From Bacteroidales bacterium (GTDB lineage Bacteria; Bacteroidota; Bacteroidia; Bacteroidales; UBA932), in the NCBI GenBank assembly GCA_024398125.1, contig JAKSJO010000021.1, forward strand, positions 1 to 42,106: a DNA stretch of 42,106 nucleotides, in the 5' to 3' direction. The position numbers were made by a program, and so were the translations under genes. Positions 28,665 to 42,106 of the stretch are shown here, piece after piece. Within the stretch, counting starts at the first letter, position 1. Every line of letters starts with the position of its first letter. Below the pieces are notes generated by a model, which saw only the letters and a program-made list of their open reading frames with translations, was not told where the DNA came from and made no database searches.

Positions 28665-28699
28665 AGGAAAGAGGTCACCGTTCTGGTGGCCTCTTTCCT
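28665..28699. terminator. Strong bidirectional terminator between clpP and nspC
   Basis: A 15-base stem (28665-28679 with 28685-28699) with loop GTTCT, formed by AGGAAAGAGGTCACC and its complement with one G-U pair. It lies 28 bases after the clpP stop and its right arm reaches the nspC stop, so it could end transcripts from both sides. There is no long U run. Confidence 0.8.
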
Positions 28700-29847
28700 T
28701 ATAGTCTGGATTTGAAGTCGTCGTACCCGAATTTCTTCCAGGTCCTGAGATTGCCGTCTTCTTCGAGAATATCAATCTCTGGCAGCGGCATTCCATTGAA
28801 AGTGTTGTTCTTCACCATGGAATAGATCGCCATGTCGTCAAATCTGAGGATGTCGCCTTCAACCAATGGACTGTCGAACGAATAGTCCCCTATGACGTCG
28901 CCGGAAAGGCATGTTGGGCCTGCCAGCCTGTATGTGAAATCCTTCTCCCCAGCCTTGCCGCTTTTATCAAGCGGAGGTCTGTATGGCATTTCAAGCACGT
29001 CGGGCATATGGCATGCTGCGCTTGTGTCCAGGATTGCAATATCCAATGACTTGCGATGCTGAACCTCAAGGACCTTGGTGTATAGATAACCGGAATTGAG
29101 TGCAATTGCCTCTCCCGGCTCCAGATATACTTCCAAACCATATCCCGTCTGCATCCTTCTTATGCATCTCTTGAGACGATCGATATCGTATCCCTGTCTT
29201 GTTATGTGATGGCCTCCTCCGAAGTTAACCCATTTCATTCCCGGCAGGTACTTTTCGAATCTTTTCTCGAATTCATCAAGAGTTGTCTCAAGATCATCCG
29301 AATCCTGTTCACAGAGCGTATGGAAGTGAAGACCATCAAGCAATCCAAGCATTTCGGGATAATCCGCAAGACCTGCCTCGAATTCCTCCAGGGTCGTTCC
29401 CAGGCGGCTTCCTTCTGCGCAGGGATCATAAATTGCATGCCCTTCCTGGGTGGATTTCTCCGGGTTGATTCTCAATCCTGTCTGCAGCCCTTTCTGTCTT
29501 GCCTTTGGGGCGAATCTGATAAGCTGTCTTACTGAATTGAATACGATGTGGTCGCAGATATCCAGTATCTCCGGCATATCCTCATCCTTGAATGCAGGAG
29601 AGAATATATGGTTCTCCCCGGATGGCATGAATTCGTGTGAAAGTCTTGCCTCGAACAGACCCGATGCCGTTGCACCTGACAGGTACTCCGCGATCATCGG
29701 GTACAAGGTGTAGCATGAGAAAGCCTTTTGTGCAAGAAGTATGTGGGCTCCGGTGGAGTCCATGACTTCCTTAATAATGGATAGATTCCGCCTGAGCGCA
29801 GCGGAATCTATCACATAGCAAGGTGTATGGAGTGAACTTATATTCAT
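28699..29847 (-). CDS. nspC: Carboxynorspermidine decarboxylase-family protein
   Basis: A 382-residue PLP-dependent alanine-racemase-fold decarboxylase. It removes the carboxyl group from carboxynorspermidine/carboxyspermidine or, in related enzymes, carboxyaminopropylagmatine. Lys41 (LLAQKAFSCY) is the PLP lysine. The GGGHHITRQGYD loop and CEQDSDDLE are family features. The ORF extends ten codons upstream of the ATG at 29847, but those overlap the previous gene's stop, so I chose 29847. Placed last in the operon right after its usual partner dehydrogenase (1-base gap). It is convergent with clpP across a strong terminator. Confidence 0.92.
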   Translation of the reverse strand: MNISSLHTPCYVIDSAALRRNLSIIKEVMDSTGAHILLAQKAFSCYTLYPMIAEYLSGATASGLFEARLSHEFMPSGENHIFSPAFKDEDMPEILDICDHIVFNSVRQLIRFAPKARQKGLQTGLRINPEKSTQEGHAIYDPCAEGSRLGTTLEEFEAGLADYPEMLGLLDGLHFHTLCEQDSDDLETTLDEFEKRFEKYLPGMKWVNFGGGHHITRQGYDIDRLKRCIRRMQTGYGLEVYLEPGEAIALNSGYLYTKVLEVQHRKSLDIAILDTSAACHMPDVLEMPYRPPLDKSGKAGEKDFTYRLAGPTCLSGDVIGDYSFDSPLVEGDILRFDDMAIYSMVKNNTFNGMPLPEIDILEEDGNLRTWKKFGYDDFKSRL

Positions 29848-29848
29848 C

Positions 29849-31108
29849 TTAGTCAACAAGGACAGGGTTCTCGTCAACTACCCATGGAAGTCCCCACTTG
29901 TTAAGAGCCTCCATGTATGGATCCGGATCGAAGTCCTCTACATTGAAGACACCTGCCTTCTTCCAAAGGCCTGTCATTACCATCATGGTGCCGATCATTG
30001 CTGGAACTCCTGTCGTGTAAGAGATAGCCTGGGAACCAACTTCCTTGTAGCACTCCTGGTGATCGCATACATTGTAGATCTTGATCGACTTCTTCTTTCC
30101 GTCCTTGATGCCTGTGAAGATACAGCCGATGTTGGTCTTGCCTACAGTTCTTGGACCGAGGGATGCAGGATCAGGAAGAAGAGCCTTGAGGAACTGGATA
30201 GGAACGATTTCCTTGCCTTCGAACATGACAGGGTCCGTGCGGAGCATTCCAACATTCTCGAGACACTTCATATGAGTGAGGTAGCTCTGGCCGAAGGTCA
30301 TGAAGAAGCGGATTCTCTTTACGCCAGGGATGTTCTTTGCGAGAGATTCGATCTCTTCGTGGTGAAGAAGGTACATGTCCTTCTGGCCGACTCCCTCGAA
30401 AACGTACTCTCTCTTTATCTCCATCGGTTTTGTCTCTACCCAGTGGCCGTCTTCCCAGTATGAACCGTTTGCCGATACCTCTCTGAGGTTGATCTCCGGG
30501 TTGAAGTTGGTTGCGAACGGATATCCGTGATCGCCTCCATTGCAGTCAAGTATATCTATGGTATGGATTTCGTCGAAATAGTGCTTGAGGGCATATGCCG
30601 AGAATACGCTGGTCACGCCCGGGTCAAAACCGGTTCCAAGAAGAGCGGTGATACCCTTGCTGTTGAATCTGTCCTGGTAAGCCCACTGCCATGAGTAGTC
30701 GAAGTATGCGGTGAATCCCAGTTCCTTGCATCTTTTTTCGTAGATTGCTCTCCACTCAGGATCTTCTGTGTCCTCTGGCTCATAGTTGGCAGAATCCACA
30801 TAGTCAACCCCAGTAGCGAGACAGGCATCCATGATAGTGAGGTCCTGGTAAGGAAGCGCAAGATTAAGGACGATGTCAGGCTTCACCTCTTTGATGAGGG
30901 CAACGAGCTCGTCAACGCTGTCAGCATTGACCTTTGCTGTGGTTATGACTGCATTCGTCTTGCCATCGAGCTTGGCCTTGAGAGCTTCGCACTTAGAAAC
31001 GGTGCGGCTTGCTATGCAGATTTCTGTGAATACCGAGTCGTTCTGTGCGCACTTCTGGATTGCCACCTGGGCAACTCCACCACATCCGATTACCAATACT
31101 TTTCCCAT
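29849..31108 (-). CDS. Carboxynorspermidine/carboxyspermidine dehydrogenase (saccharopine dehydrogenase-like)
   Basis: A 419-residue NAD(P)-dependent enzyme that reductively joins aspartate-beta-semialdehyde to a diamine: diaminopropane, putrescine or, in recently described relatives, agmatine. The Rossmann motif VIGCGGVAQVA is at 6-16. The SWQWAYQDRF and DPGVTSVFSAYAL segments are typical of CASDH. It is followed by its decarboxylase. The acceptor diamine cannot be read from sequence; the nearby ureohydrolase raises the agmatine possibility. Confidence 0.9.
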   Translation of the reverse strand: MGKVLVIGCGGVAQVAIQKCAQNDSVFTEICIASRTVSKCEALKAKLDGKTNAVITTAKVNADSVDELVALIKEVKPDIVLNLALPYQDLTIMDACLATGVDYVDSANYEPEDTEDPEWRAIYEKRCKELGFTAYFDYSWQWAYQDRFNSKGITALLGTGFDPGVTSVFSAYALKHYFDEIHTIDILDCNGGDHGYPFATNFNPEINLREVSANGSYWEDGHWVETKPMEIKREYVFEGVGQKDMYLLHHEEIESLAKNIPGVKRIRFFMTFGQSYLTHMKCLENVGMLRTDPVMFEGKEIVPIQFLKALLPDPASLGPRTVGKTNIGCIFTGIKDGKKKSIKIYNVCDHQECYKEVGSQAISYTTGVPAMIGTMMVMTGLWKKAGVFNVEDFDPDPYMEALNKWGLPWVVDENPVLVD

Positions 31109-31119
31109 TTTCTTTTTTC

Positions 31120-31156
31120 TAGTCTTTTATTGATTGTAATTATGATATAGTCTTTT
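31120..31156. repeat. Short direct repeat between speB and CASDH genes
   Basis: TAGTCTTTT occurs at 31120-31128 and 31148-31156 (28-base period) in the 56-base intercistronic gap. It is the longest gap inside the operon. No promoter consensus is seen; function is unknown. Confidence 0.5.
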
Positions 31157-31164
31157 CATTCCCT

Positions 31165-32022
31165 CTATTTCTGGAGAGCAAGCATCAGCTCTCTGGCGAC
31201 CTTGCATGCGACAGCGGTGGAAACCCCGCTCTGGTCGTATGTCGGGCAGAGTTCGTTGATGTCGCATCCGACGATGTCACAGGCTGAGCATACCTTGATG
31301 ATTGCCTCTATAAGGTCCATGAAGCTGACACCGCCGGCCTCTGGCGTACCTGTCCCTGGGAAGATGGAAGGATCAAGCACATCGAGGTCTATGGTGAAAT
31401 AGACATGCTTGCCCTTAAGCTTCTCCAATGTATCGGTCAGTCCGTCAAACGAGAACTTGTGCAGCTCAGTATGACCTTCATCCGCCCATCTGAATTCTGG
31501 GCGGTCTCCTGACCTGATTCCGAACTGATGTATCCTGCCGTCTCCGACAAGGTCGTGACAACGTCTGATGACTGCCGCATGCGAGAGCTTTACTCCAAGG
31601 TACTCGTCACGAAGGTCGGTATGTGCATCAAAATGGATGACATGAACGTCTGGATACCTTTTGTATACCTCCCTGAAGGCTCCCAGGGTAACAAGATGCT
31701 CGCCTCCTACCATGAGCGGCAGCTTTCCGTCATCGAGGATAGTCGAAGTCCGTTCCGATATCTGTGAAAGGGCGATCTCACTTGAGCCCATGCTGAGCTC
31801 GATGTCTCCACTGTCAAAGATGCTGCAGTCGGTCAGATCCTTGTCCTGGTATGGGCTGTAAGTCTCCAGACCGTAGGACTCGGAACGTATGGCCTTGGGA
31901 CCGAACCTGGTCCCGGGGCGGTATGATGTAGTAGAGTCGAATGGCGCACCGAAGATGACGATAGATGCATCATCATATTCGGCATCGCAGGCGATGAAAG
32001 TCTCTATGTTTCTCTCAAGCAT
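31165..32022 (-). CDS. speB: Agmatinase-family ureohydrolase
   Basis: A 285-residue binuclear manganese ureohydrolase. Metal ligands are His109 (GGEHLVTLG), Asp132, His134 and Asp136 (HFDAHTDLRD), and Asp212 and Asp214 (TIDLDVLDPS). The usual reaction is agmatine to putrescine plus urea. Relatives instead act on aminopropylagmatine, giving spermidine directly; the sequence alone does not decide between them. It starts 2 bases after the SpeE-like gene. This differs from Bacteroides, in which agmatine deiminase and N-carbamoylputrescine hydrolase are usual. Confidence 0.88.
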   Translation of the reverse strand: MLERNIETFIACDAEYDDASIVIFGAPFDSTTSYRPGTRFGPKAIRSESYGLETYSPYQDKDLTDCSIFDSGDIELSMGSSEIALSQISERTSTILDDGKLPLMVGGEHLVTLGAFREVYKRYPDVHVIHFDAHTDLRDEYLGVKLSHAAVIRRCHDLVGDGRIHQFGIRSGDRPEFRWADEGHTELHKFSFDGLTDTLEKLKGKHVYFTIDLDVLDPSIFPGTGTPEAGGVSFMDLIEAIIKVCSACDIVGCDINELCPTYDQSGVSTAVACKVARELMLALQK

Positions 32023-32024
32023 TT

Positions 32025-32888
32025 TTAATCGTTTATTGATTCAACGTCTCGGAGCGCCCTCTCGACGTATGCGGGAAGTGCGAAGCATCCTACGTGAAGA
32101 TTGGTTGTATAATAGTCAGTGTAGATGCCGAGCCTGTTCCATCTTGCAGCATCCAGGTCATCAACAGGATGGTATTTCTTTGAAGCGAATCCGAAGAGCC
32201 AGTATCCTGATGGATAAGATGGAATGTGCGCCTGATAGACTCTCGAGATAGGAAAGTTGGAAAGGATTCTCTTGTGGGCTTTCTGGGTCTCGATCCTGTC
32301 CTCGTCATAGAACGGACTCTGATGCTGGTTGACCATGATGCCGTCTTCCTTGAGAGCCTTGTAGCAGCTGCCGTAGAACTCTCGAGTAAGGAGACTCTCC
32401 CCCGGACCATAGAATCCCGCAGAGTCGACGATGATGATGTCATATTCGTTCTCTATGTGGCGTATGAAACGGAGCGCATTGTCGGTATAGAGGTTGACGC
32501 GTGGATCATCCAGTGATGCTGCCACGTCCGGAAAAAACTGGCGGCACGCCTCGACTACTCCGTCGTTTATCTCGACCAGATCTATCCTCTCGATGCTTTT
32601 GTATTTCACGAGTTCATCAATAACTCCGCCGTCTCCGGCACCGAAGACCAGTATCTTGCGGGCGTCCTTATGGACAGCCATAGGAACATGCGCAAGCATC
32701 TCGTCGTAGATGAATTCGTCCCTTTCCGTGAAGATGATATATCCGTCGACCGCGAGAATTCTTCCATACTCGATCGAGTCGAAGATATCCACTCTTCCGA
32801 GATCGTTCTCGTTGCTGTACAGATGCTTGTCCACGCGTACCGAGAACTTTACGTCCTCTGTATGATGCTCTGAAAACCAGTACTCCAT
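32025..32888 (-). CDS. SpeE-like aminopropyltransferase with altered active site
   Basis: A 287-residue spermidine synthase-family protein with Rossmann motif GAGDGGV at 84-89. Alignment from memory to clostridial and E. coli SpeE shows good overall match (TERDEFIY, GPGESLLTREFYGSCYKALKEDG, PSYPSG). Key catalytic residues are changed: YHEM is YDEM at 61-64, VEID is VEIN, EDG/DDG is TDN, and the DxTDP motif is DSAGF at 155-159, so the second Asp, normally an amine-binding residue, is absent. No SpeD (source of decarboxylated SAM) is in the window. Its activity may be lost or redirected. It sits between the decarboxylase and ureohydrolase genes. Confidence 0.85.
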   Translation of the reverse strand: MEYWFSEHHTEDVKFSVRVDKHLYSNENDLGRVDIFDSIEYGRILAVDGYIIFTERDEFIYDEMLAHVPMAVHKDARKILVFGAGDGGVIDELVKYKSIERIDLVEINDGVVEACRQFFPDVAASLDDPRVNLYTDNALRFIRHIENEYDIIIVDSAGFYGPGESLLTREFYGSCYKALKEDGIMVNQHQSPFYDEDRIETQKAHKRILSNFPISRVYQAHIPSYPSGYWLFGFASKKYHPVDDLDAARWNRLGIYTDYYTTNLHVGCFALPAYVERALRDVESIND

Positions 32889-32894
32889 TCTTTC

Positions 32895-34358
32895 TTAATA
32901 TATGGTCATTTCCTTGATAACATTCAGTCTCTCGCACTTCTCGTCTTCCGGTCCTGTAAGGGAGCAGCCTTTCTCCTTTGCATACAGGATGTAGTCGATG
33001 ATTTCCTGGGTGATTCTCTCGCCTGGTGCCAGGATAGGAATCCCAGGAGGATAGCTCATCACAAACTCCGTACATACCCTTCCCTTGGTTTCGCGTATTG
33101 GAATCATTTCCTCCTTTACCGCGTAGAATGCTTCCTGGGGAGTAAGGACTACCTGCGGGTTGATATACTCATGATCGAAGAGGCCGGTTCTGTCCTTGCT
33201 GTAAATTCTCTTGATGTCATACAGAGCACTGACAAGTCTCTCAACCTCTCTCATGCGGTCTCCGATGGAGATGTATGCGAGGACGTTTCCGATGTCTCCG
33301 AGTTCGAGCTGGATGTCGTATTCGTCCCTGAGCAGATCGTATACCTCGATGCCCGCGAGTCCGATGTCGAGGGTGAATACGGTGAGCTTCGTGGTATCAA
33401 AATCATACACGCTGTCTCCATTGACAAGCTCCTTGCCGTAGGCGTAGTATCCTCCGATATTGTTGATCTCCCTGCGGGCGTATTCAGCAATCTCGCGTAC
33501 CTGGCGGAATGATTCCTTGCCCCTGAGTGCAAGATTGCGTCGGCTTATGTCAAGGCTCGCCATGAGCAGGTAGGACGCACTCGTGGTCTGGGTGAGGTTG
33601 ATCACCTGACGTACATAGCCAGCGCTGACTCTCGGTCCTGCGAGCAGGAAGGAACTCTGGGTAAGGCTTCCTCCTGACTTATGCATGCTGACTGAAGCCA
33701 TGTCGGCACCCGCAGCCATGGCGGTGACGGGCATGTCCTCGCCGAAATAGAAGTGAGTTCCATGGGCCTCATCGACAAGAACCATCATGTTGTGCGCATG
33801 TGCAATCTCGACAATTTTCCTAAGGTTTGAACAGATACCGTAGTAAGTCGGATTGTTGACAAGGATTGCTACAGCGTCTGGATTCTCCTCGATCGCTTTT
33901 TCGACCTGGGAGATCTTCATCCCAAGAGCGATTCCAAGCCGCTTGTCGGTGTCAGGGTTGACATAAATAGGAGTTGCGCCGTTGACAACAAGCGCATTGA
34001 TAACTGAACGGTGGACATTTCGTGGCAGAATGATCTTTTCTCCGCTCTTGCAGGCAGTGAGAACCATCGTCTGTACGGCAGAAGTGGTGCCTCCTACCAT
34101 AAGGAATGCATGAGCGGCACCGAATGCTTCTGCGGCGAGAATCTCGGCTTCCTTGATCACTGAGATCGGGTGACAAAGGTTGTCAAGCGGCTTCATCGAA
34201 TTGACATCCAGCTCGACGCACTGCTTGCCAAACAGCTTGACGAGTTCGGGATTGCCTCGGCCTCTCTTGTGACCTGGGACGTCGAATGGAACGACTCTGT
34301 TTCTTCTGAATTCCTCGAGGGCCTCGTATATAGGCGCCTTGTCCTGATTCATAGGCAA
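32895..34358 (-). CDS. PLP-dependent Orn/Lys/Arg decarboxylase family, probably arginine decarboxylase
   Basis: A 487-residue fold-type I decarboxylase, of the short Firmicutes SpeA/YaaO type. The PLP lysine is Lys227 in SMHKSGGSLTQ, with the cofactor Asp196 in DEAHGTH. A PGHKRGRG motif is near the start. The context with agmatinase points to arginine decarboxylation (agmatine), but lysine or ornithine cannot be excluded. First gene of the operon; its ATG follows a structured leader of about 320 bases. Two in-frame ATG codons (residues 1 and 3) are close. Confidence 0.88.
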   Translation of the reverse strand: MPMNQDKAPIYEALEEFRRNRVVPFDVPGHKRGRGNPELVKLFGKQCVELDVNSMKPLDNLCHPISVIKEAEILAAEAFGAAHAFLMVGGTTSAVQTMVLTACKSGEKIILPRNVHRSVINALVVNGATPIYVNPDTDKRLGIALGMKISQVEKAIEENPDAVAILVNNPTYYGICSNLRKIVEIAHAHNMMVLVDEAHGTHFYFGEDMPVTAMAAGADMASVSMHKSGGSLTQSSFLLAGPRVSAGYVRQVINLTQTTSASYLLMASLDISRRNLALRGKESFRQVREIAEYARREINNIGGYYAYGKELVNGDSVYDFDTTKLTVFTLDIGLAGIEVYDLLRDEYDIQLELGDIGNVLAYISIGDRMREVERLVSALYDIKRIYSKDRTGLFDHEYINPQVVLTPQEAFYAVKEEMIPIRETKGRVCTEFVMSYPPGIPILAPGERITQEIIDYILYAKEKGCSLTGPEDEKCERLNVIKEMTIY

Positions 34359-34693: not shown

Positions 34694-34748
34694 GACAATT
34701 ATTTGATTCATGCGAGAAATGATGGCTATTTTTTTAAGTTTTCATAAT

Positions 34749-34781
34749 AAAACCGGTCCATAACTAATATGAACCGGTTTT
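34749..34781. terminator. Terminator after galE
   Basis: AAAACCGGT and ACCGGTTTT form a 9-base stem (34749-34757 with 34773-34781). It lies 26 bases past the galE stop and ends in T-rich sequence on either strand, so it is a plausible bidirectional terminator separating the two operons. Confidence 0.75.
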
Positions 34782-34806
34782 CAAATGTCAACGGAAAGCA
34801 GCCGAT

Positions 34807-35826
34807 TTACTTCGACTCGTATCCGTTCGGATTGTTCTTCTGGAAATTCCAGCTGTCGCGGCACATGTCCTCGATGCCGTACTGTGCCTCCCATCCTAGC
34901 TCAGCCTTTGCCTTTGCAGGATTACAGTAGCATGTGGCGATGTCACCAGGGCGGCGTGGCTTGATAGCGTATGGAACCTTGAGATCATTTGCCTTCTCGA
35001 AGGCCTTTACAACGTCAAGAACGCTGTAGCCATGGCCGGTACCGAGGTTGTAGATGGCAAGGCCGCAGTTTTTCTCGATAGCCTGAAGTGCAGCCACATG
35101 GCCGCTGGCGAGGTCTACGACATGGATGTAGTCGCGTACGCCTGTTCCGTCAGGAGTGTCATAGTCGTTTCCGAATACGCCGAGCTCCTTGCGGATGCCG
35201 ATGGCGGTCTGGGTGATGTACGGCATCAGGTTGTTTGGAATGCCGTTAGGGTTTTCGCCAATGAGACCGCTCTTGTGCGCACCGATAGGATTGAAGTAGC
35301 GCAGGAGTACCACATTCCACTCCTTGTCGGCTTTCTGGACGTCCATGAGAACTTCCTCGAGCATGCTCTTGGTCTGGCCGTATGGATTGGTGCAATGACC
35401 CTTTGGACACTCCTCTGTGATAGGAATCATTGCAGGGTCGCCGTATACTGTGGCGGATGAGCTGAAGATGATGTTCTTGCATCCATGGTTGCGCATCACG
35501 TCAAGGAGAACGAACGTTGCGTTCATGTTGTTCTCGTAGTACTCAAGCGGCTTGGCAACGCTCTCGCCGACTGCCTTGAGACCGGCGAAATGGATCACAG
35601 CATCGATCTTGTTGTCGCTGAAGACCTTGTCCATGGCAGCACGGTCGCGTACATCAGCCTCTACAAAGGGAACTTCCTTGCCGATGATCTTCGCAACGCG
35701 CTTCAGAGCCTCTGGCTGAGAATTGTAATAGTTGTCGACAACGACTACGCTGTGACCGGCCTTGTCAAGCTCGATGATGGTGTGGCTTCCGATGTAGCCT
35801 GCTCCACCTGTAAGGAGAATATTCAT
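34807..35826 (-). CDS. galE: UDP-glucose 4-epimerase GalE
   Basis: A 339-residue short-chain dehydrogenase-type epimerase interconverting UDP-glucose and UDP-galactose. NAD-binding TGGAGYIGSHT is at 6-16. The catalytic Tyr149 and Lys153 lie in NPYGQTKSMLEEV, with the Ser in SSSATVYGD. Length is standard (about 338). It ends an operon starting outside the window and is 23 bases downstream of the glycyl-radical activase, an unexpected location for a sugar epimerase. Confidence 0.96.
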   Translation of the reverse strand: MNILLTGGAGYIGSHTIIELDKAGHSVVVVDNYYNSQPEALKRVAKIIGKEVPFVEADVRDRAAMDKVFSDNKIDAVIHFAGLKAVGESVAKPLEYYENNMNATFVLLDVMRNHGCKNIIFSSSATVYGDPAMIPITEECPKGHCTNPYGQTKSMLEEVLMDVQKADKEWNVVLLRYFNPIGAHKSGLIGENPNGIPNNLMPYITQTAIGIRKELGVFGNDYDTPDGTGVRDYIHVVDLASGHVAALQAIEKNCGLAIYNLGTGHGYSVLDVVKAFEKANDLKVPYAIKPRRPGDIATCYCNPAKAKAELGWEAQYGIEDMCRDSWNFQKNNPNGYESK

Positions 35827-35849: not shown

Positions 35850-36740
35850 TTATCCGCCTATGATGGCATGTATTCCGTGGGCCTCGAATATCGCGGCGCT
35901 CTCGGCGAGCACTTCCTTCGAAGGCTCCTGCATGTCATAGTTGTCAGGGTTGTAGGTTGTGTGCATGCGGGCATGCTTGCCCTTGCCGATATCGTGGTAT
36001 GGAAGAAGGTTGACCTGCTTTGTCTTCCATGGAAGGGATTCCAGGAATGCAGCTGACTTTTCGATGTTCTCCTTGTCTGCATTCACGCCCACAATTAGCG
36101 GAATACGGATATAGAATTCAGCCCCTAGTTCAGTTGCAAGGCGGATGTTGTCCAGAATGATGTCATTCGAAACTCCTGTGTAGAACTTGTGCTTCTCTGC
36201 ATCCATGTGCTTTAGATCCACGAGAAGAAGCTCCGAATTGGCAATGACTTCGCGTACAACCTTTTCCGGCGCGAAGAGAGTCGTGTCCACGCAGCGGTGG
36301 AATCCCCTTTCTCCAAGTTCCTTGAGGATTTCAAGAAGATAGTCGGGGTGCATGAGAGGCTCGCCGCCGCAGATGGTCACACCACCGCCGCTGCCGGTCA
36401 TCACTCCCCTTTCCTTCTCGATCACGGCCATGAGCTCGTCCATTTCCCATTCCTTGCCGCACATCTCCAGCGCGATTGCAGGACATTCCTCGACGCACTT
36501 TCCGCAATTGATGCAATCCTTCAGCTCACGAGGATCGAGCCCGTTCGGACAGGCCTCGACGCAGCTCAGGCAGCCGATGCATTTCTGTTCCTTGAACAGA
36601 CGCTGGCGCTGGGCACGCTGGCTTTCAGGATTGTGACACCATACGCAACGGAGCGGGCACCCCTTCATGAAGATGGTGGTGCGGATGCCCGGTCCGTCGT
36701 TGATGGCGTAACGCTTGATATCGAATATCAGATTGCTCAT
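35850..36740 (-). CDS. Glycyl-radical enzyme activase (radical SAM, ferredoxin-type insert)
   Basis: A 296-residue radical SAM enzyme that installs the glycyl radical on its partner. The SAM cluster is Cys28, Cys32 and Cys35 (CxxxCxxC, KGCPLRCVWCHNPES). An inserted ferredoxin-like region has two CxxCxxCxxxC sets: Cys54/57/60/64 and Cys76/79/82/86. This arrangement is typical of activases for dehydratase-type GREs rather than plain PFL activase. The ATG overlaps the stop of the glycyl-radical enzyme gene by one base (TAATG). It is almost certainly the activator of that gene product. Confidence 0.95.
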   Translation of the reverse strand: MSNLIFDIKRYAINDGPGIRTTIFMKGCPLRCVWCHNPESQRAQRQRLFKEQKCIGCLSCVEACPNGLDPRELKDCINCGKCVEECPAIALEMCGKEWEMDELMAVIEKERGVMTGSGGGVTICGGEPLMHPDYLLEILKELGERGFHRCVDTTLFAPEKVVREVIANSELLLVDLKHMDAEKHKFYTGVSNDIILDNIRLATELGAEFYIRIPLIVGVNADKENIEKSAAFLESLPWKTKQVNLLPYHDIGKGKHARMHTTYNPDNYDMQEPSKEVLAESAAIFEAHGIHAIIGG

Positions 36741-39139
36741 TAGAGTTCCTCGTTCTCGGTACGTGCGATGATCTCGTTCTGGAGCTGTGCAGTCATATCG
36801 TTGAAGTAGTCAGAGTATCCTGCTACGCGGACGAGAAGGTCGCGGTAGTTGTCTGGATGGAGCTGAGCGTCCTCGAGGGTCGCGGTGTCAACGATGTTGA
36901 ACTGGATATGGTGTCCGCCGAGCTTGAAGTACTCACGGATGAGTGAAGAGAACTTCTTGAGGTCCTCGTCTCTCTTGAGGAGTGCAGGCACGAAACGTAC
37001 ATTGAGGAGGGTACCGCCTGACTTGGTCTGGTCGAGCTTGCCGAGCGACTTGATCACAGAGGTAGGTCCCTGGCAGTCTGAACCGTGTGAAGGAGATGTA
37101 CCGTCGGAGATTGCGAAGTGTGCGAAACGTCCGTTAGGAGTTGCACCGCAGACGCTTCCGAAGTAGTTGTGGCAGGTAGTAGAAAGCATGTTGAGACAGG
37201 TCTTGCCGCCACGGGTGTTAGGACGTCCTTCGATAGCCTTCACGAGATCCTCGTATACGCGTACAGCGATGGTATCGGCATACTCGTCGTCGTTTCCGAA
37301 GAATGGAGTGTGGTTGCGGATGTACTGACGCATCTTCTCCTCACCCTCGAAGTTCTTCTTGAGAGCCTCGAGCATCTGGTCCATGGTGAACTTCTTATCC
37401 TCGAAGATATGCTTCTTGATGGTTGTGAAGCAGTCGGTGATGGTTCCGAGACCGGTGCACTGGATATAGGTGGTGTTGTAACGTGCACCGCCGCTGTAGT
37501 AGTCACGGCCCTTCTCGATACAGTCGTCGATATAGAGGCTGAGGAAGGTTGCAGGAGCATAGAGAGAGAACATTCTCTCGATGTAGTTGTTGACTGAAAG
37601 CTTGAGGTTTACAAAGTATACCATCTGCTTGTGCCATGCATCGTATACCTCCTCGAAGCTCTTGAACTCACGAGGGTCGCCGGTCTGGAGACCGATAAGT
37701 TTGCCGGTCTCAGGATCGATACCGTTGTTGAGAGTGATTTCGAGGATCTTTGGAGTATTGAGGTAACCGGTGAGAAGGTAAGCCTCCTTACCGAATGCGC
37801 CGACCTCGATACAGCCTGAGCAACCGCCTTCGTTTGCATCCTCGCGGCTCTTGCCCTGACGCATGAGCTCCTTGGTATAGGTATCAGGGTTGAATACTGA
37901 AGGATATCCGAATCCCTGACGGATCACGCGGCAACCTGCGAGAAGGAACTCGTCCGGGGTCTTTTCCGAAATATGGATTGAAAGACCTGGCTGGAGCTCG
38001 TGAAGCTCTTCCTGGATTTCGAGGATCACGTAAGAAAGCTCGTTGGATCCATCCTCACCATCACGGGTGATACCACCGATGTTGATGTTGGTGAAGTCGT
38101 TGTAGGTACCTGACTCCTTTGCGGTAATACCTACCTTTGGAGGAGCTGGCTGGTTGTTGAACTTGATCCAGAGGCATGAGAGAAGCTCCTTTGCCTGGTC
38201 GCGGGTGATGGTACCCTCGGCGAGCTGCTTCTCGTAGAATGGCCAGAGATGCTGGTCGATGTGACCAGGGTTCATTGAATCCCAGCCGTTAAGCTCGGTC
38301 ACGGTTCCAAGGTGAACGAACCAGTACATCTGGATAGCCTCCCACATGTCACGTGGTGCATGTGCAGGAACCCAGTGGCATACTTCTGCGATCTTCTCGA
38401 GCTCGGCCTTGCGCTGAGGATCAGTCTCCTCGGCAGCCATCTTCTCTGCGAGCTCTGCGTGACGCTCAGCGAACACGATTGCAGCGTCACAGCTGATGCT
38501 CATGGCGGTCAACTCGTCGTTCTTGTCGGTAGCCTCAGGGTCGTTGATGTAATCAAGGCTTGCAATCTTCTTCGCGATTCTCTCCTTGACATCAAGAAGT
38601 CCCTCCTTGTAGAGCTTGCCGTCCATTGCGGTATGACCGGCGGCACGCTGCTCCATAAACTCGGTGAACACACCTGCAACGTAAGCCTCTTCCCACTCCT
38701 TAGGTACGTGGTTGAAGATGCGCTCGCGCTGGGTCTTGCCCTCCCAGTATGGAATCACCTCACGCTCGTAGGTGTCGATGTCCTCCTGGCTGATGTGGTA
38801 TGGCTGGAGGTCGCGGGTGTTGAGGACATTGAGGTCCTCTACTGAGTGACAGGTAAGCTCAGGGAATGTAGGAACGGCCTTTGGAAGTGGTCCACGCTCG
38901 CCGACGATAAGCTCGTCCTTGCCGATATAGATGGTCTTCTTCTTGCAGATCTCAAGGAAGTTTGATGCACGGAGGACAGGAAGAGGCATCTTGCCGTAGT
39001 TCTCCTTGTAGAAAGCGGTCTCGATAAGAGCACGCTCGATGGTAAGGGTGGTAGGAGTCTCGATGCTCTCGTTGCGGAGACGCTTGATACGATCGTTCAT
39101 TCCACCATCGTTACCTGGGTATTTCAGTGCGAAATTCAT
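36740..39139 (-). CDS. hypD: Glycyl-radical dehydratase, probably trans-4-hydroxy-L-proline dehydratase (HypD)
   Basis: A 799-residue glycyl radical enzyme. The active-site Cys443 and Glu445 (SGCIE) give the CxE signature of GRE dehydratases and exclude PFL, which has adjacent Cys-Cys. The radical Gly774 is in RVAGYSDYF. Alignment from memory to Clostridioides HypD is close along the length, with FTEFMEQRAAGHT, WIKFNNQPAPPKVGIT and TTCHNYFG. HypD converts trans-4-hydroxyproline to pyrroline-5-carboxylate, and the operon has P5C dehydrogenase and an X-Pro aminopeptidase. A start at Met14 (39100) would align better with HypD; I kept the upstream ATG. Other GRE dehydratases remain possible. Confidence 0.85.
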   Translation of the reverse strand: MNFALKYPGNDGGMNDRIKRLRNESIETPTTLTIERALIETAFYKENYGKMPLPVLRASNFLEICKKKTIYIGKDELIVGERGPLPKAVPTFPELTCHSVEDLNVLNTRDLQPYHISQEDIDTYEREVIPYWEGKTQRERIFNHVPKEWEEAYVAGVFTEFMEQRAAGHTAMDGKLYKEGLLDVKERIAKKIASLDYINDPEATDKNDELTAMSISCDAAIVFAERHAELAEKMAAEETDPQRKAELEKIAEVCHWVPAHAPRDMWEAIQMYWFVHLGTVTELNGWDSMNPGHIDQHLWPFYEKQLAEGTITRDQAKELLSCLWIKFNNQPAPPKVGITAKESGTYNDFTNINIGGITRDGEDGSNELSYVILEIQEELHELQPGLSIHISEKTPDEFLLAGCRVIRQGFGYPSVFNPDTYTKELMRQGKSREDANEGGCSGCIEVGAFGKEAYLLTGYLNTPKILEITLNNGIDPETGKLIGLQTGDPREFKSFEEVYDAWHKQMVYFVNLKLSVNNYIERMFSLYAPATFLSLYIDDCIEKGRDYYSGGARYNTTYIQCTGLGTITDCFTTIKKHIFEDKKFTMDQMLEALKKNFEGEEKMRQYIRNHTPFFGNDDEYADTIAVRVYEDLVKAIEGRPNTRGGKTCLNMLSTTCHNYFGSVCGATPNGRFAHFAISDGTSPSHGSDCQGPTSVIKSLGKLDQTKSGGTLLNVRFVPALLKRDEDLKKFSSLIREYFKLGGHHIQFNIVDTATLEDAQLHPDNYRDLLVRVAGYSDYFNDMTAQLQNEIIARTENEEL

Positions 39140-39158
39140 AGTTGTTTATTGATGTTTT

Positions 39159-40550
39159 TTATTTATTCATTGCTTCATAGACCTCGGCGATGGTCATAGG
39201 CTTCTTGATTGTACCCATGAGCTCAGCGCCCTTGTCTGTGATCATATAGTCAAGTTCATTGCGGAGACCTGAGAAGCCCTTCCACTTCTCAACCTCATCG
39301 TAGTTGATGAAATCAGCGAACTGCTTCTCTGCGTGCCACTTGTCGATAAGCTCAGGCATGAAATAGATACCTGGCTCGACAGTGAATACGAATCCCTTCT
39401 CCAGCGGACGTGCAAGTCTTAGAGACTTGAAACCGAACTGGGTACTCTTCTTCACGCCCTCAGGATAGCCTACGTACTGCTCGCCGAGGTTCTCCATGTC
39501 GTGAACGTCGAGACCCATCATGTGGCCGAGACCGCATGGGAAGAACAGTGCGTATGCGCCGATCTCGGCAGCTTCGCGTGCGTCGCCCTTCATCATGCCG
39601 AGTCCCTTCATGCCCTCGACAATCTTTGTTGCAGCTGCGAGGTGTGCCTCCTTGAAAGGAACGCCTGGCTTGAGGGTGTCGACTGCAGCCTGGAATGAAT
39701 CGAGATGGATGTTGTAGATCATCTCCTGCTGCTCTGTGAACTTGCTGCTTACAGGACATGCTGATGAGAGGTCTCCAGAGTAATGGAGAGGAGTCTCTGC
39801 ACCGGCGTCGAGAAGGAAGATGTCGCCCTCCTTGAGGGTATGTACGAATCCGTGGTTGTGGAGCACATGACCGTGGCTGGTGGCGATGGTAGGGAACGAG
39901 AGACGCCCGCCGCACTCGCATGCAACCTGCTCGACGGCAGCTGCGATCTCGCACTCATGCACGCCTGGCTTTGCCATACGGTATGCGGTAAGGTGCATGC
40001 GGGTAGAGATATCTACTGCCTTGGTGATCTCGGCGATTTCCTCGTCGGTCTTGTGATTTCTCATGTTCACTACAGCCTTGACAAACTCTACGCTTGCATA
40101 CATCTTCTGGGCAGCTGGAGCGATTCCGAGAAGCTCTGCAATCTTGAGCTTGTGCTCAGGACGGTAAGGAGGAAGGAAATGAACCTTCTGGCCCTTGTTG
40201 ATGGCTGCATGAAGGTATGATTCGAGGCTGCAGAGAGCCATGCTCTTGGCTACACCTACGATAGCACTCTTCTCAGCTACGGTAGGCTGGGTGCCCATCC
40301 ATACGAAGTCGTCGATGGTAAGCTCGTTTCCGAAGATGATCTCTTCGTCATTGTCAACGTCGATGACAGCTGCGAGTCCTGAATAGTCAAGACCGAAATA
40401 GTACGAGAAGGTACTGTCCTGGCGGAACATGTAGGTATTGTCCTCGTAGTTCATTGCGCTCTCGTCATTGCCGAGGAAGAGCAGCAGACCGCTGCCCATA
40501 GCCTTCTTGAGCTCGGCGCGGCGTGATATGTAGGTTTCCTTGCTGAACAT
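39159..40550 (-). CDS. M24B aminopeptidase P-family metallopeptidase (X-Pro peptidase)
   Basis: A 463-residue pita-bread metallopeptidase that cleaves Xaa-Pro bonds. Metal ligands are Asp248 (LLDAG), Asp260 (YSGDLSSACPVS), His343 (GLGHMMGLDVHD), Glu392 (TVEPGIYF) and Glu432 (GLRNELD). An N-terminal creatinase-type domain covers about 1-160. No signal peptide is seen, so it is cytosolic. I started it at the ATG at 40550; ten upstream codons are open but overlap the M64 gene end. It precedes hypD by 19 bases and would release proline or hydroxyproline-containing products. Confidence 0.92.
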   Translation of the reverse strand: MFSKETYISRRAELKKAMGSGLLLFLGNDESAMNYEDNTYMFRQDSTFSYYFGLDYSGLAAVIDVDNDEEIIFGNELTIDDFVWMGTQPTVAEKSAIVGVAKSMALCSLESYLHAAINKGQKVHFLPPYRPEHKLKIAELLGIAPAAQKMYASVEFVKAVVNMRNHKTDEEIAEITKAVDISTRMHLTAYRMAKPGVHECEIAAAVEQVACECGGRLSFPTIATSHGHVLHNHGFVHTLKEGDIFLLDAGAETPLHYSGDLSSACPVSSKFTEQQEMIYNIHLDSFQAAVDTLKPGVPFKEAHLAAATKIVEGMKGLGMMKGDAREAAEIGAYALFFPCGLGHMMGLDVHDMENLGEQYVGYPEGVKKSTQFGFKSLRLARPLEKGFVFTVEPGIYFMPELIDKWHAEKQFADFINYDEVEKWKGFSGLRNELDYMITDKGAELMGTIKKPMTIAEVYEAMNK

Positions 40551-40560
40551 GGTTATTGTT

Positions 40561-41889
40561 TTATTTTGTATAATATTCAATCATTCTTTCAATAGCGCGC
40601 TGGCATACAGGACAGAACGCCGGTGCTGTATTGTTGATCATTCGGCACTCCCAGAAAGGACGGTAGATGTCCTTTGCCATATAGCCGGCTCCTTCGTAGA
40701 GACCGACGACATTGAGAGTTGAATCAGTCGTAGGGACAGGTGTGCTCTCGTCGACCATATCTGCCCACTTGGATTCGAAGTCAACGAGAGTGGTGATGTT
40801 CGGTTCCCATGGCTCTACATCCAGAGGATAGTATCCTTCGTATGCGACAGGAGACTTGTAGTACTCATCACCCAGACCTGCGAAGCTGTGACCGAACTCA
40901 TGGATGAATACCTCGTTCGAGAGTTCGTTGTCGGCTGTTCCCATTGCATACGAATAGAAGATGCCGCCACCGCCGTATTTGGTTTCGTTCGCGATGACGA
41001 AGATCGCGTCAAACGGTGTTCCGCTGTAGACGTCTCCGATCTTGCGGTGATCCTGGATTGTGAGGTAACGGTCCTCGTAGAATGTGTCGAAACCGGAGTT
41101 GAATGCGGTATTGCGCCACTCGCCGAACTGAGGCTTGTCCACGCCTCCTTCTTCCGAAGCGCTCTCGATCAGCCATACGTTGAAGTCGTCGCGGTGGCTC
41201 TTATATGGTTCCATGGAGAAGAGATACTCCATGAACTTGTTTGCGTCCTTGTTGAGCTTGCCCATCTGGTCCTTTGTGTAGGCTTCGCCTGAGAACACAA
41301 GGTCAACCTTGTGGGCCATGTCTCCCTTGACCTGGAGAGGAATGACGTTGAAGTCATTGACCGGTCCGGGGATGATGTGTGTATCGGCAGGGTCGATCTC
41401 GAAGGAAGCGGCCTTCTCGAACAGTCCTGTCTTGCGGATACGGTAGTAGAACACTACGGTAACCTTTTCCTTAGGGCATGGCATCCATACACACTGGTTT
41501 GCCGCCATGTCTACATGCTTTGCCTGGTCGGTAGTGCGCCACTCCTCGAAGAGAGTTGAAAAACCTCTCGAGAAGATGAGCTTGTCCCCGCTGAAAACCT
41601 CGAAGAAGTACTGGCCATAGCCAAACTTGTCGATGAGCGAGTTCGGTGAACCTGCCCATGCGCACTCCTTGTAGATATCGCTGAGGAAGAACTCCTGCCT
41701 TTCGCTGTTTCCCGCAAAGACCATGTTGATGCGGAGGCGCTCAGGAGTGAAATATGTATCGTAGTCAACATCCTCGGTGCAGATGCTTGTCACTGTACCG
41801 TCGCCGATGACCACTTGGGTGTCTTTCTGTCCGCTGCAGCCGGAAAGCATGAGAATCGCCGCAGCTATGGAGAGAATGCTTCTTTTCAT
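40561..41889 (-). CDS. M64-family metallopeptidase lipoprotein
   Basis: A 442-residue exported zinc peptidase of the IgA-peptidase M64 family. Lipoprotein signal with Cys18 (LMLSGCSG). The zinc motif HEFGHSFAGLGDEYY starts at His330 (Glu331, His334). An N-terminal beta-rich domain (about 30-190) precedes it. In this setting it would trim host or dietary peptides at the cell surface; its true substrate is unknown. It is cotranscribed with the M24 peptidase gene that follows. Confidence 0.92.
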   Translation of the reverse strand: MKRSILSIAAAILMLSGCSGQKDTQVVIGDGTVTSICTEDVDYDTYFTPERLRINMVFAGNSERQEFFLSDIYKECAWAGSPNSLIDKFGYGQYFFEVFSGDKLIFSRGFSTLFEEWRTTDQAKHVDMAANQCVWMPCPKEKVTVVFYYRIRKTGLFEKAASFEIDPADTHIIPGPVNDFNVIPLQVKGDMAHKVDLVFSGEAYTKDQMGKLNKDANKFMEYLFSMEPYKSHRDDFNVWLIESASEEGGVDKPQFGEWRNTAFNSGFDTFYEDRYLTIQDHRKIGDVYSGTPFDAIFVIANETKYGGGGIFYSYAMGTADNELSNEVFIHEFGHSFAGLGDEYYKSPVAYEGYYPLDVEPWEPNITTLVDFESKWADMVDESTPVPTTDSTLNVVGLYEGAGYMAKDIYRPFWECRMINNTAPAFCPVCQRAIERMIEYYTK

Positions 41890-41909
41890 GTCGGAATTGA
41901 AATCATAAT

Positions 41910-41962
41910 CTTGCAGTCACGGCTCCCCTGCTTCAGACAGCACGGGAGCCGGATTCTGCAAG
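41910..41962. other. Two-tier hairpin between P5C dehydrogenase and M64 peptidase genes
   Basis: CTTGCAG (41910-41916) pairs with CTGCAAG (41956-41962) and, inside it, GGCTCCC (41921-41927) with GGGAGCC (41944-41950). It has no long T run on either side, so it is a weak terminator or an RNA-stability element between cotranscribed genes. Confidence 0.55.
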
Positions 41963-41981
41963 TATCAGAAAATCAACTTCA

Positions 41982-42106
41982 TTACTTCTTCATGTAAGTG
42001 TAATGGTAGTCGGTAGGAGAAACGAGAGTCTCCTTGATAACTCTAGGGAGTACCCAGCGGATGAGGTTGAACTCACCACCTGCCTTGTCGTTGGTACCTG
42101 AAGCAC
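41982..42106 (-). CDS. L-glutamate gamma-semialdehyde (P5C) dehydrogenase, C-terminal part
   Basis: Only the last about 41 residues lie in the window; the gene runs off the right edge. The translated end, ASGTNDKAGGEFNLIRWV and then LPRVIKET...TDYHYTYMKK, matches the C-terminus of the long RocA/PruA-type P5C dehydrogenase. It oxidises glutamate semialdehyde (the open form of P5C) to glutamate with NAD+. This supports the hydroxyproline breakdown reading of the downstream hypD. Confidence rests on a short sequence. Confidence 0.78.
   Translation of the reverse strand, partial: ASGTNDKAGGEFNLIRWVLPRVIKETLVSPTDYHYTYMKK

Follow-up and report, generated by a model that had tools for sequence, protein, structure and literature searches.

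The window analysed here, 42,106 nucleotides in length, comprises the whole of one contig (C14) from a 2.34-Mb Bacteroidales genome (G000) that is divided into 49 contigs and has a given completeness of 97.6%. The genes of interest form a minus-strand group around HypD, a glycyl radical enzyme (GRE) acting on hydroxyproline (Hyp). A preliminary description of the sequence had proposed a hydroxyproline catabolic operon at 36740–42106, containing a partial pyrroline-5-carboxylate (P5C) dehydrogenase, an M64 peptidase lipoprotein, an M24 peptidase, a glycyl radical dehydratase and its activase on one strand. All five genes were present, on the minus strand, although the activase lies outside the start of that interval and is itself followed by galE. 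In order of transcription the window carries the last 40 codons of an ALDH4-type P5C dehydrogenase (P5CDH; about 41982–42106), an M64 metallopeptidase lipoprotein of 442 residues (40561–41889; PF09471 and PF16217), an M24 Xaa-Pro dipeptidase/aminopeptidase of 463 residues (39159–40550; PF00557 and PF05195), HypD (36740–39139), a putative HypD-activating radical SAM enzyme of 296 residues (35850–36740) and galE, which encodes a UDP-glucose 4-epimerase (34807–35826; TIGR01179, 458.2 bits with a cut-off of 262.3) and is the last gene of the apparent operon. The gaps between these genes are about 92 (calculated from where the P5CDH match stops), 10, 19, −1 and 23 bases. A terminator-like hairpin on the same strand follows galE at 34735–34800 (14-pair stem, −23.5 kcal/mol, z −5.45), and 448 bases separate galE from the start of the next long minus-strand open reading frame (ORF).

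Contig C36 of the same genome begins with 55 bases that are identical to the final 55 of the window, and the two contigs are therefore neighbours in the assembly. The upstream search that had been suggested could thus be carried beyond the window, where C36 supplied the remainder of P5CDH and, on the same strand, genes with Pfam matches to DUF6055, DUF4859, SusD, SusC and GH127. The gaps going upstream from P5CDH are 115, 57, 17, 14 and 35 bases, the last being that between SusC and GH127, so that the gaps within the operon range overall from −1 to 115 bases. The resulting order of 11 genes is GH127, SusC, SusD, DUF4859, DUF6055, P5CDH, M64, M24, HypD, activase and GalE. The identical order from GH127 to galE was found on a single 393-kb contig of a relative from horse faeces (G295, locus L037), with 92.5% DNA identity to the window operon over 15.4 kb and an activase–galE gap of 25 bases. 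This grouping of genes is far beyond chance expectation. The organism appears to be a gut Bacteroidales of a lineage found in horse faeces, and the genes appear to form one long operon in which a SusC/SusD pair stands together with degradative lipoproteins, as in a polysaccharide utilisation locus (PUL).

Promoter motifs were also sought. The motif TANNTTTG occurred 6 times on C36 with 4.8 occurrences expected, which is chance level. A match to TAAATTTG, which we take to be a Bacteroides promoter element, lies on the minus strand at L032:1606–1613, inside the 115-base gap before P5CDH; its frequency on that contig is also at chance level, and an internal promoter at this site is possible.

HypD, its activase and the fate of P5C

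The HypD protein gave 1161.6 bits with NF043068 against a curated cut-off of 1100. The next family gave 627.8 bits where 678.2 are required, and none of the remaining NCBIfam models listed for the protein reached its cut-off. The top PDB match was HypD from Clostridioides difficile (6vxc), with a gapless alignment over residues 13–796. The radical glycine of this enzyme was taken to be residue 765. In the accessible text of the C. difficile study the residues named are Phe152, Arg156, His160, Trp277, Asp278, Lys326, Ser334, Asp339, Phe340, Cys434, Val435, Glu436, Tyr450 and Thr645 (PMC7077986). Comparison with C. difficile HypD, a check proposed in the preliminary description, revealed that 14 of the 15 active-site positions examined are kept in the window protein, the lone exception being Val435, the X of the CXE motif, which is replaced by Ile. 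A single scan for relatives gave at least 592 confirmed HypD genes among 593 listed stretches, and 80 loci were kept. The 14 residues are identical in all 78 HypD sequences aligned, which were those of the window and of 77 among the 80 loci, three ORFs outside the cluster having been left out. Membership of the HypD family, assigned from profile scores and residues, is almost certain, as had been supposed for the dehydratase, and the profile score, the 6vxc match and the active-site residues rule out another GRE family. For the adjacent radical SAM protein the best of the listed models was T4HPD_activ_SAM, at 318.8 bits and below its cut-off of 425, while the general GRE activase model TIGR02494 gave 312.1 bits with a cut-off of 174.35. 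The latter score and the position of the gene identify the protein as a GRE activase, and the best match suggests that HypD is its partner.

The 40-codon tail of P5CDH in the window lies in a clear frame and is a 100% match to residues 503–542 of a full-length relative. The P5CDH of L037, which is 99% identical to the piece on C36, gave 762.9 bits with TIGR01236 (cut-off 613.6), and the nearest solved relatives are mitochondrial P5C dehydrogenases. It was the only aldehyde-dehydrogenase-family gene found in the window genome, where it runs into the end of C36. Proline dehydrogenase (ProDH) was looked for in the same genome and none was found, and a part for P5CDH in proline oxidation there was rejected for that reason. 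Together with the position of P5CDH within the HypD operon, this means that oxidation of P5C to glutamate, as put forward in the preliminary description, is well supported. Two intact proC-like genes, both just under the TIGR00112 cut-off, are present elsewhere in the genome, so that reduction of P5C is possible too; most of the P5C probably goes to glutamate.

In the alternative case P5C would be converted mainly to proline by ProC, the known clostridial route in the accessible text of PMC7077986, and P5CDH would serve another route such as ornithine catabolism. The proC-like genes agree with this, as does the uneven occurrence of P5CDH. In 31 HypD genomes, comprising that of the window and 30 chosen by us from the 80 loci, P5CDH of this type was present in 23 and ProDH in 8; the 8 in which this P5CDH was not found include Prevotella communis E15-14 and P. 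aff. ruminicola Tc2-24. Nor was it seen beside HypD in another 11 HypD genomes belonging to the window's family, three of which are just below the HypD cut-off; the flanks fetched there span about 2 to 17 kb on the upstream side and more on the downstream side. On the other side stand the place of P5CDH within the window's HypD operon, the failure to find ProDH in that genome and the presence of P5CDH at a distance of 8 kb or less from HypD in 17 of the 30 other genomes. In 4 more it is farther away on the same contig, and in 9 it lies on another contig or was not found; the G309 gene is split in two, with masked bases close by. Reduction to proline as the main fate of P5C is accordingly regarded as doubtful, and oxidation to glutamate is retained.

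Peptidases and arabinose genes at HypD loci

The best PDB matches of the M24 protein were Xaa-Pro dipeptidase followed by aminopeptidase P. No signal peptide was seen by eye in this protein, which is therefore probably cytosolic. The M64 protein matched PDB 4df9 at 7.9e-97 and has a lipobox-like start, LMLSGC. The DUF6055 protein on C36 carries a BACON domain and an HExxH motif. An HExGH motif and a downstream Glu are kept in all seven DUF6055 sequences aligned, and for this reason DUF6055 is likely to be a zinc peptidase; a structure model from the 7 sequences gave a predicted local distance difference test score (pLDDT) of 51 and was set aside. Fusions of DUF6055 with a GH27 alpha-galactosidase or GH97 were observed at L150:10154–12643, L159:2881–5367 and L038:16211–19405, the GH27 fusion in both of the two proteins scanned for it and the GH97 fusion in another. 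DUF6055 may act on glycopeptides.

In relatives the M24 and HypD genes are adjoined by a conserved gene for a small lipoprotein whose HExxH motif is kept in all 22 sequences aligned; L068:7728–8597 is one example. No Pfam match was obtained for the two members scanned, and no significant match was found among PDB sequences (best E 0.03). An AlphaFold2 model built from the 22 sequences had a pLDDT of 73.1, and the first seven matches in a Foldseek search of the PDB with this model were all Pro-Pro endopeptidases (PPEP), namely PPEP-2, PPEP-3 and PPEP-1. These matches are modest, with a best E of 1.9e-4 (the only one below 0.001), probabilities of 0.99–1.00, TM scores of 0.44–0.54 by target length and root-mean-square deviations of 8.7–9.4, and the lipoprotein is described here as PPEP-like rather than as a PPEP. 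Of the 42 HypD genomes searched, 29 contain a PPEP-like gene, and in 18 of 30 genomes this gene is no more than 8 kb away from HypD. The window genome has two PPEP-like genes outside the HypD operon, at G000:C19:28801–29649 and G000:C23:1834–2577; the locus queries matched no neighbour beside the C19 copy and gave a weak GH27 match near the C23 copy.

The GH127 protein of C36 contains all three expected domains, catalytic (PF07944, 396.5 bits), middle (PF20736, 91.7 bits) and C-terminal (PF20737, 73.4 bits). Its sole NCBIfam match was aceric acid hydrolase, an enzyme that also belongs to GH127, at 486.3 bits and well below the cut-off of 950. We read as GH146-like those genes whose match to the Pfam family shared by GH127 and GH146 was weaker. 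Within the flanks of the 80 loci, which extend up to 10 kb and are often shortened by contig ends, the activase was counted 70 times, M24 48, the small HExxH lipoprotein 40, P5CDH 24 and a long aminopeptidase P 13. The glycan genes were GH43 (4), GH127/146 (2), GH27 (2), GH51 (1) and AraA (1). Any of six peptidase groups was found beside HypD in 53 of the 80 loci, so the association of HypD with peptidases, to which the preliminary description had drawn attention, recurs in relatives.

Wider stretches around HypD were taken from seven genomes. That of G316 contains, in order, a GH146-like gene, a hybrid two-component system (HTCS) gene on the opposite strand, GH127, GH51, GH27 in one frame with DUF6055, SusC, SusD, DUF4859, DUF6055, P5CDH, the HExxH lipoprotein, M24, HypD, the activase on the opposite strand and an S9 peptidase; G306 and G309 are similar, with extra SusC genes. 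The order in G314 is GH127, GH51, GH146-like, GH27, a DPP4-type S9 peptidase, P5CDH, the HExxH lipoprotein, M24 and HypD, and the short contig of G310 has GH27, SusCD, DUF6055 and S9, then the core of P5CDH, HExxH lipoprotein, M24 and HypD. In G296 the genes are GH51, GH127, a GH97–DUF6055 fusion, a regulator, activase, HypD, M24, M64, a tandem copy of the HExxH lipoprotein, P5CDH, DUF6055, DUF4859, SusD, SusC, GH27 and a GH146-like gene. One strand of G304 carries GH127, SusCD, DUF4859, two DUF6055 genes, CotH, HTCS, M64, an aldose epimerase, a symporter of the SSF family, AraR, AraD, AraA, a kinase, P5CDH, the HExxH lipoprotein, M24, HypD, GH97 and the activase, so that the genes from the symporter to the kinase lie directly upstream of the core; a second GH127, a second GH97 and GH43 are on the other strand. 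GH127/GH146 Pfam genes are located 7–35 kb from HypD in G296, G304, G306, G309, G314 and G316, and these six stretches variously hold GH51, GH27, GH97, GH43, S9 peptidases and an HTCS-type regulator.

A second locus in the window genome, of an arabinose type and on contig C29 (L155, L206), encodes HTCS, GH97, GH127, an aldose epimerase, an SSF symporter, AraD, AraA, an FGGY kinase, GH51 and an SBF-family transporter. For the kinase the sole match, to the xylulokinase model, falls far short of the cut-off, and a truncated SusC at this locus is 47% identical to the SusC of the HypD operon.

Two further features were observed in the surroundings of HypD. The next operon downstream in the window (28699–34358, minus strand) is conserved in L037 and presumably resembles a polyamine synthesis operon, with a decarboxylase and SpeE-like, SpeB-like, carboxynorspermidine dehydrogenase-like and NspC-like proteins, names that were assigned from the sequence by eye. 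In four relatives a protein of 303–332 residues is encoded downstream of HypD, before an opposite-strand activase (L077:13335–14243, L081:13556–14464, L091:12874–13869 and L083:12660–13619); we take it to resemble a REP-associated transposase.

Source of the hydroxyproline

Extensins, a class of structural protein in the plant cell wall, contain Ser-Hyp4 repeats, the serines of which bear alpha-galactose. From the gene content described above, the substrate of the locus is quite probably an arabinosylated hydroxyproline-rich glycoprotein, and among such glycoproteins extensins are the most likely. This is favoured because the families found in the window genome and in relatives match the bonds of extensin. 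The Hyp residues of extensin carry chains of three or four L-arabinofuranoses (Ara3 and Ara4) that contain three beta-bonds, to which the longer chain adds one alpha-bond, and GH43, GH121 and GH127 are the enzymes with which bifidobacteria strip this arabinose, as stated in passages of PMC7263609; Hyp-linked arabinose is also the target of a bifidobacterial GH146 in the accessible part of PMC10850190. GH127 and the GH146-like proteins would be suited to the beta-arabinose and GH51 to the alpha-arabinose, with GH27 and GH97 as candidates for alpha-galactose. AraA and AraD match arabinose, HypD and P5CDH match hydroxyproline, and the fusions of GH27 and GH97 with DUF6055 link work on the glycan with work on the peptide.

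In the proposed pathway the lipoprotein zinc peptidases (M64 and, judging by its HExxH motif, DUF6055) would cut the protein backbone, GH127 would take beta-L-arabinofuranose off the sugar chains on Hyp, and SusCD would bring in the peptides or glycopeptides. M24 would then release Hyp inside the cell, HypD, charged by its activase, would dehydrate it to P5C, and P5CDH would oxidise this to glutamate without a need for oxygen. The sugar would be handled by the C29 locus, in the order regulator, GH97, GH127, aldose epimerase, symporter, AraD, AraA, kinase and GH51.

Several observations weigh against so specific a substrate. GH127 enzymes act on arabinogalactan and rhamnogalacturonan II (RG-II) as well, the fold match of the PPEP-like lipoprotein is modest, and the window operon has no PPEP-like gene, M64 taking its place. 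A GH127-family gene lies within 45 kb of HypD in only 7 of the 30 genomes, several of which are related to each other, and about 3 of 30 are expected from gene density (some 3.6 matches per genome of about 2.9 Mb by our estimate, with unbroken chromosomes assumed). The proximity count alone is therefore weak, and plain proximity statistics were rejected as a support for the use of extensin; what carries the case is the order, strand and content of the genes. At least one GH127-family gene is upstream on the strand of HypD in six of these seven genomes, and in G296 the same-strand one is downstream. Neither GH127 nor P5CDH was seen in the fetched flanks of the 11 further family genomes, 6 of which have M24, long aminopeptidase P or S9 peptidases near HypD. 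In the Prevotella-type genomes G297, G298 and G308 a further 19 kb upstream held, among the genes sought, only the core of P5CDH, PPEP-like lipoprotein, M24 and HypD, and of the genes sought G107 had only HypD and the activase, with no P5CDH beside HypD. Twenty-seven of the 80 loci lack all six peptidase groups in their flanks, and in 4 of the 80 a GH2 protein, foreign to an extensin scheme, is encoded about 9–10 kb upstream of HypD.

The distribution of HypD is itself uneven. HypD above the cut-off was found in 2 of 295 genomes in an even draw of the class (that of the window and G107), in 16 of the 99 from the window's family and in 1 of the 7 genomes searched from its genus, G000; horizontal gain of the locus is possible. 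The GRE matches in four genus siblings were weak and seem to belong to a different GRE. A distant HypD lineage in the same family (L175 and L176, from G400 and G417), 48–49% identical to the window's HypD, is flanked by M24 and long aminopeptidase P and is apparently a separate case of HypD with proline peptidases. From the mixed distribution the extensin arrangement is therefore confined to some lineages; HypD with peptidases is wider than this arrangement, and HypD alone is wider still.

The preliminary description had supposed that the peptidases free proline or hydroxyproline from collagen-like peptides, and Hyp could come from host or dietary collagen or gelatin, with GH127 and SusCD as incidental neighbours. 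HypD and prolidase-type peptidases would work on any Hyp peptide, collagenase peptidase domains occur farther down among the fold matches of the PPEP-like protein, and many HypD loci in the 80-locus tally have no arabinose enzymes nearby. To our knowledge collagen carries no arabinose, and GH127 is part of the same tight operon, only 35 bases from SusC. Collagen is rich in Hyp according to the accessible text of PMC7077986. Some relatives, in turn, add arabinofuranosidases (GH51), alpha-galactosidase families (GH27 and GH97) and an arabinose operon. By our count a herbivore (horse, deer, sheep, goat, cattle, yak or buffalo) or the rumen occurs in 27 of the 80 record titles; the other 53 mention no host, and the composition of the collection was uncontrolled. 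Because the operon starts with GH127 and SusCD and because relatives carry these further sugar genes, a collagen-like source was not supported; it was set aside as the leading one and is considered very unlikely.

The target could instead be some other plant polymer that combines arabinose with protein, for example an arabinogalactan protein (AGP), whose backbone also contains Hyp, and Hyp would then be a by-product. G304 carries a GH43 that could be of any subfamily, and the GH2 protein of the four loci noted above also fits such a polymer. The alpha-galactosidase families and the PPEP-like proteins would suit Ser-Hyp4 repeats, as these are generally understood, better than an AGP, and GH16, GH79, GH78, GH105 and GH35 were not seen among the locus proteins scanned, which represent part of the genes. 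Action of the Bacteroides thetaiotaomicron GH127 BT3674, together with galactanases, on larch arabinogalactan is described in the accessible part of PMC10850190. On this evidence AGP or a similar polymer is an improbable target, and extensin is preferred.

Comparison with known systems

The HypD operon shares with the Stickland hydroxyproline route of C. difficile, which consists of HypD, its activase and P5C reductase, the same dehydratase, an adjacent activase and all the active-site residues save Val435. It differs in that P5CDH, peptidases, SusCD and an arabinofuranosidase adjoin HypD in place of ProC, and in the oxidative product route and plant glycoprotein source proposed here. The HypAA–HypBA2–HypBA1 cluster of Bifidobacterium longum, which acts on beta-arabinooligosaccharides of hydroxyproline-rich glycoproteins, likewise combines a GH127 beta-L-arabinofuranosidase with arabinose use, and relatives of the window add GH146-like and alpha-arabinofuranosidase genes as in the B. 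longum system; sugar release and import are what the accessible passages on that system describe, whereas backbone and Hyp catabolism, with import by SusCD, are proposed here (PMC7263609, PMC10850190). GH121 was not seen among the proteins of the window and its relatives that were scanned. In common with PULs of Bacteroidota the locus has a SusC/SusD pair, surface lipoproteins and glycosidases, with an HTCS-type regulator in relatives, but it adds peptidases and a complete amino-acid branch of HypD, activase and P5CDH. The predicted fold of the lipoprotein next to HypD may resemble those of PPEP-1, -2 and -3, entries of which make up its seven best, though modest, PDB matches. It differs in being a Bacteroidota lipoprotein encoded beside HypD, with no Pfam match in the two members scanned and no significant sequence match in the PDB.

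HypD is stated to work in “Firmicutes and Bacteroides bacteria” in the accessible text of a 2024 review (PMC11574389), and its occurrence in Bacteroidota, which had been offered as a novelty, is thus already known. The oxidative operon that formed the other part of that claim is real and well supported; the gene observation of the preliminary description is confirmed, and its interpretation is supported in part. The operon is best read as the protein half of an extensin-utilisation locus. What is new is a locus of the polysaccharide-utilisation type with a full amino-acid branch, and among the open-licence papers searched none was found that links HypD with extensin or brings the other parts of the scheme together.

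Extensin-degrading pathways, genes and microorganisms are described as little known, those of anaerobes least, in the accessible part of PMC4454575. The locus unites research on the HypD glycyl radical enzyme with that on beta-arabinofuranosidases in one testable pathway, and it provides new candidate enzymes, namely PPEP-like lipoproteins for poly-hydroxyproline and alpha-galactosidase–DUF6055 fusions for Ser-galactose peptides. On balance, it is slightly more likely than not that Bacteroidales of herbivore guts have dedicated extensin loci for digesting the sugar and the protein half of the glycoprotein together, with HypD serving there mainly for plant wall protein and not for collagen. In such loci the arabinofuranosidases and the alpha-galactosidase–peptidase fusions would strip extensin, and PPEP-like lipoproteins would cut the runs of poly-hydroxyproline. 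If this is true, plants rather than collagen would be the source of the hydroxyproline used by HypD in herbivore guts.

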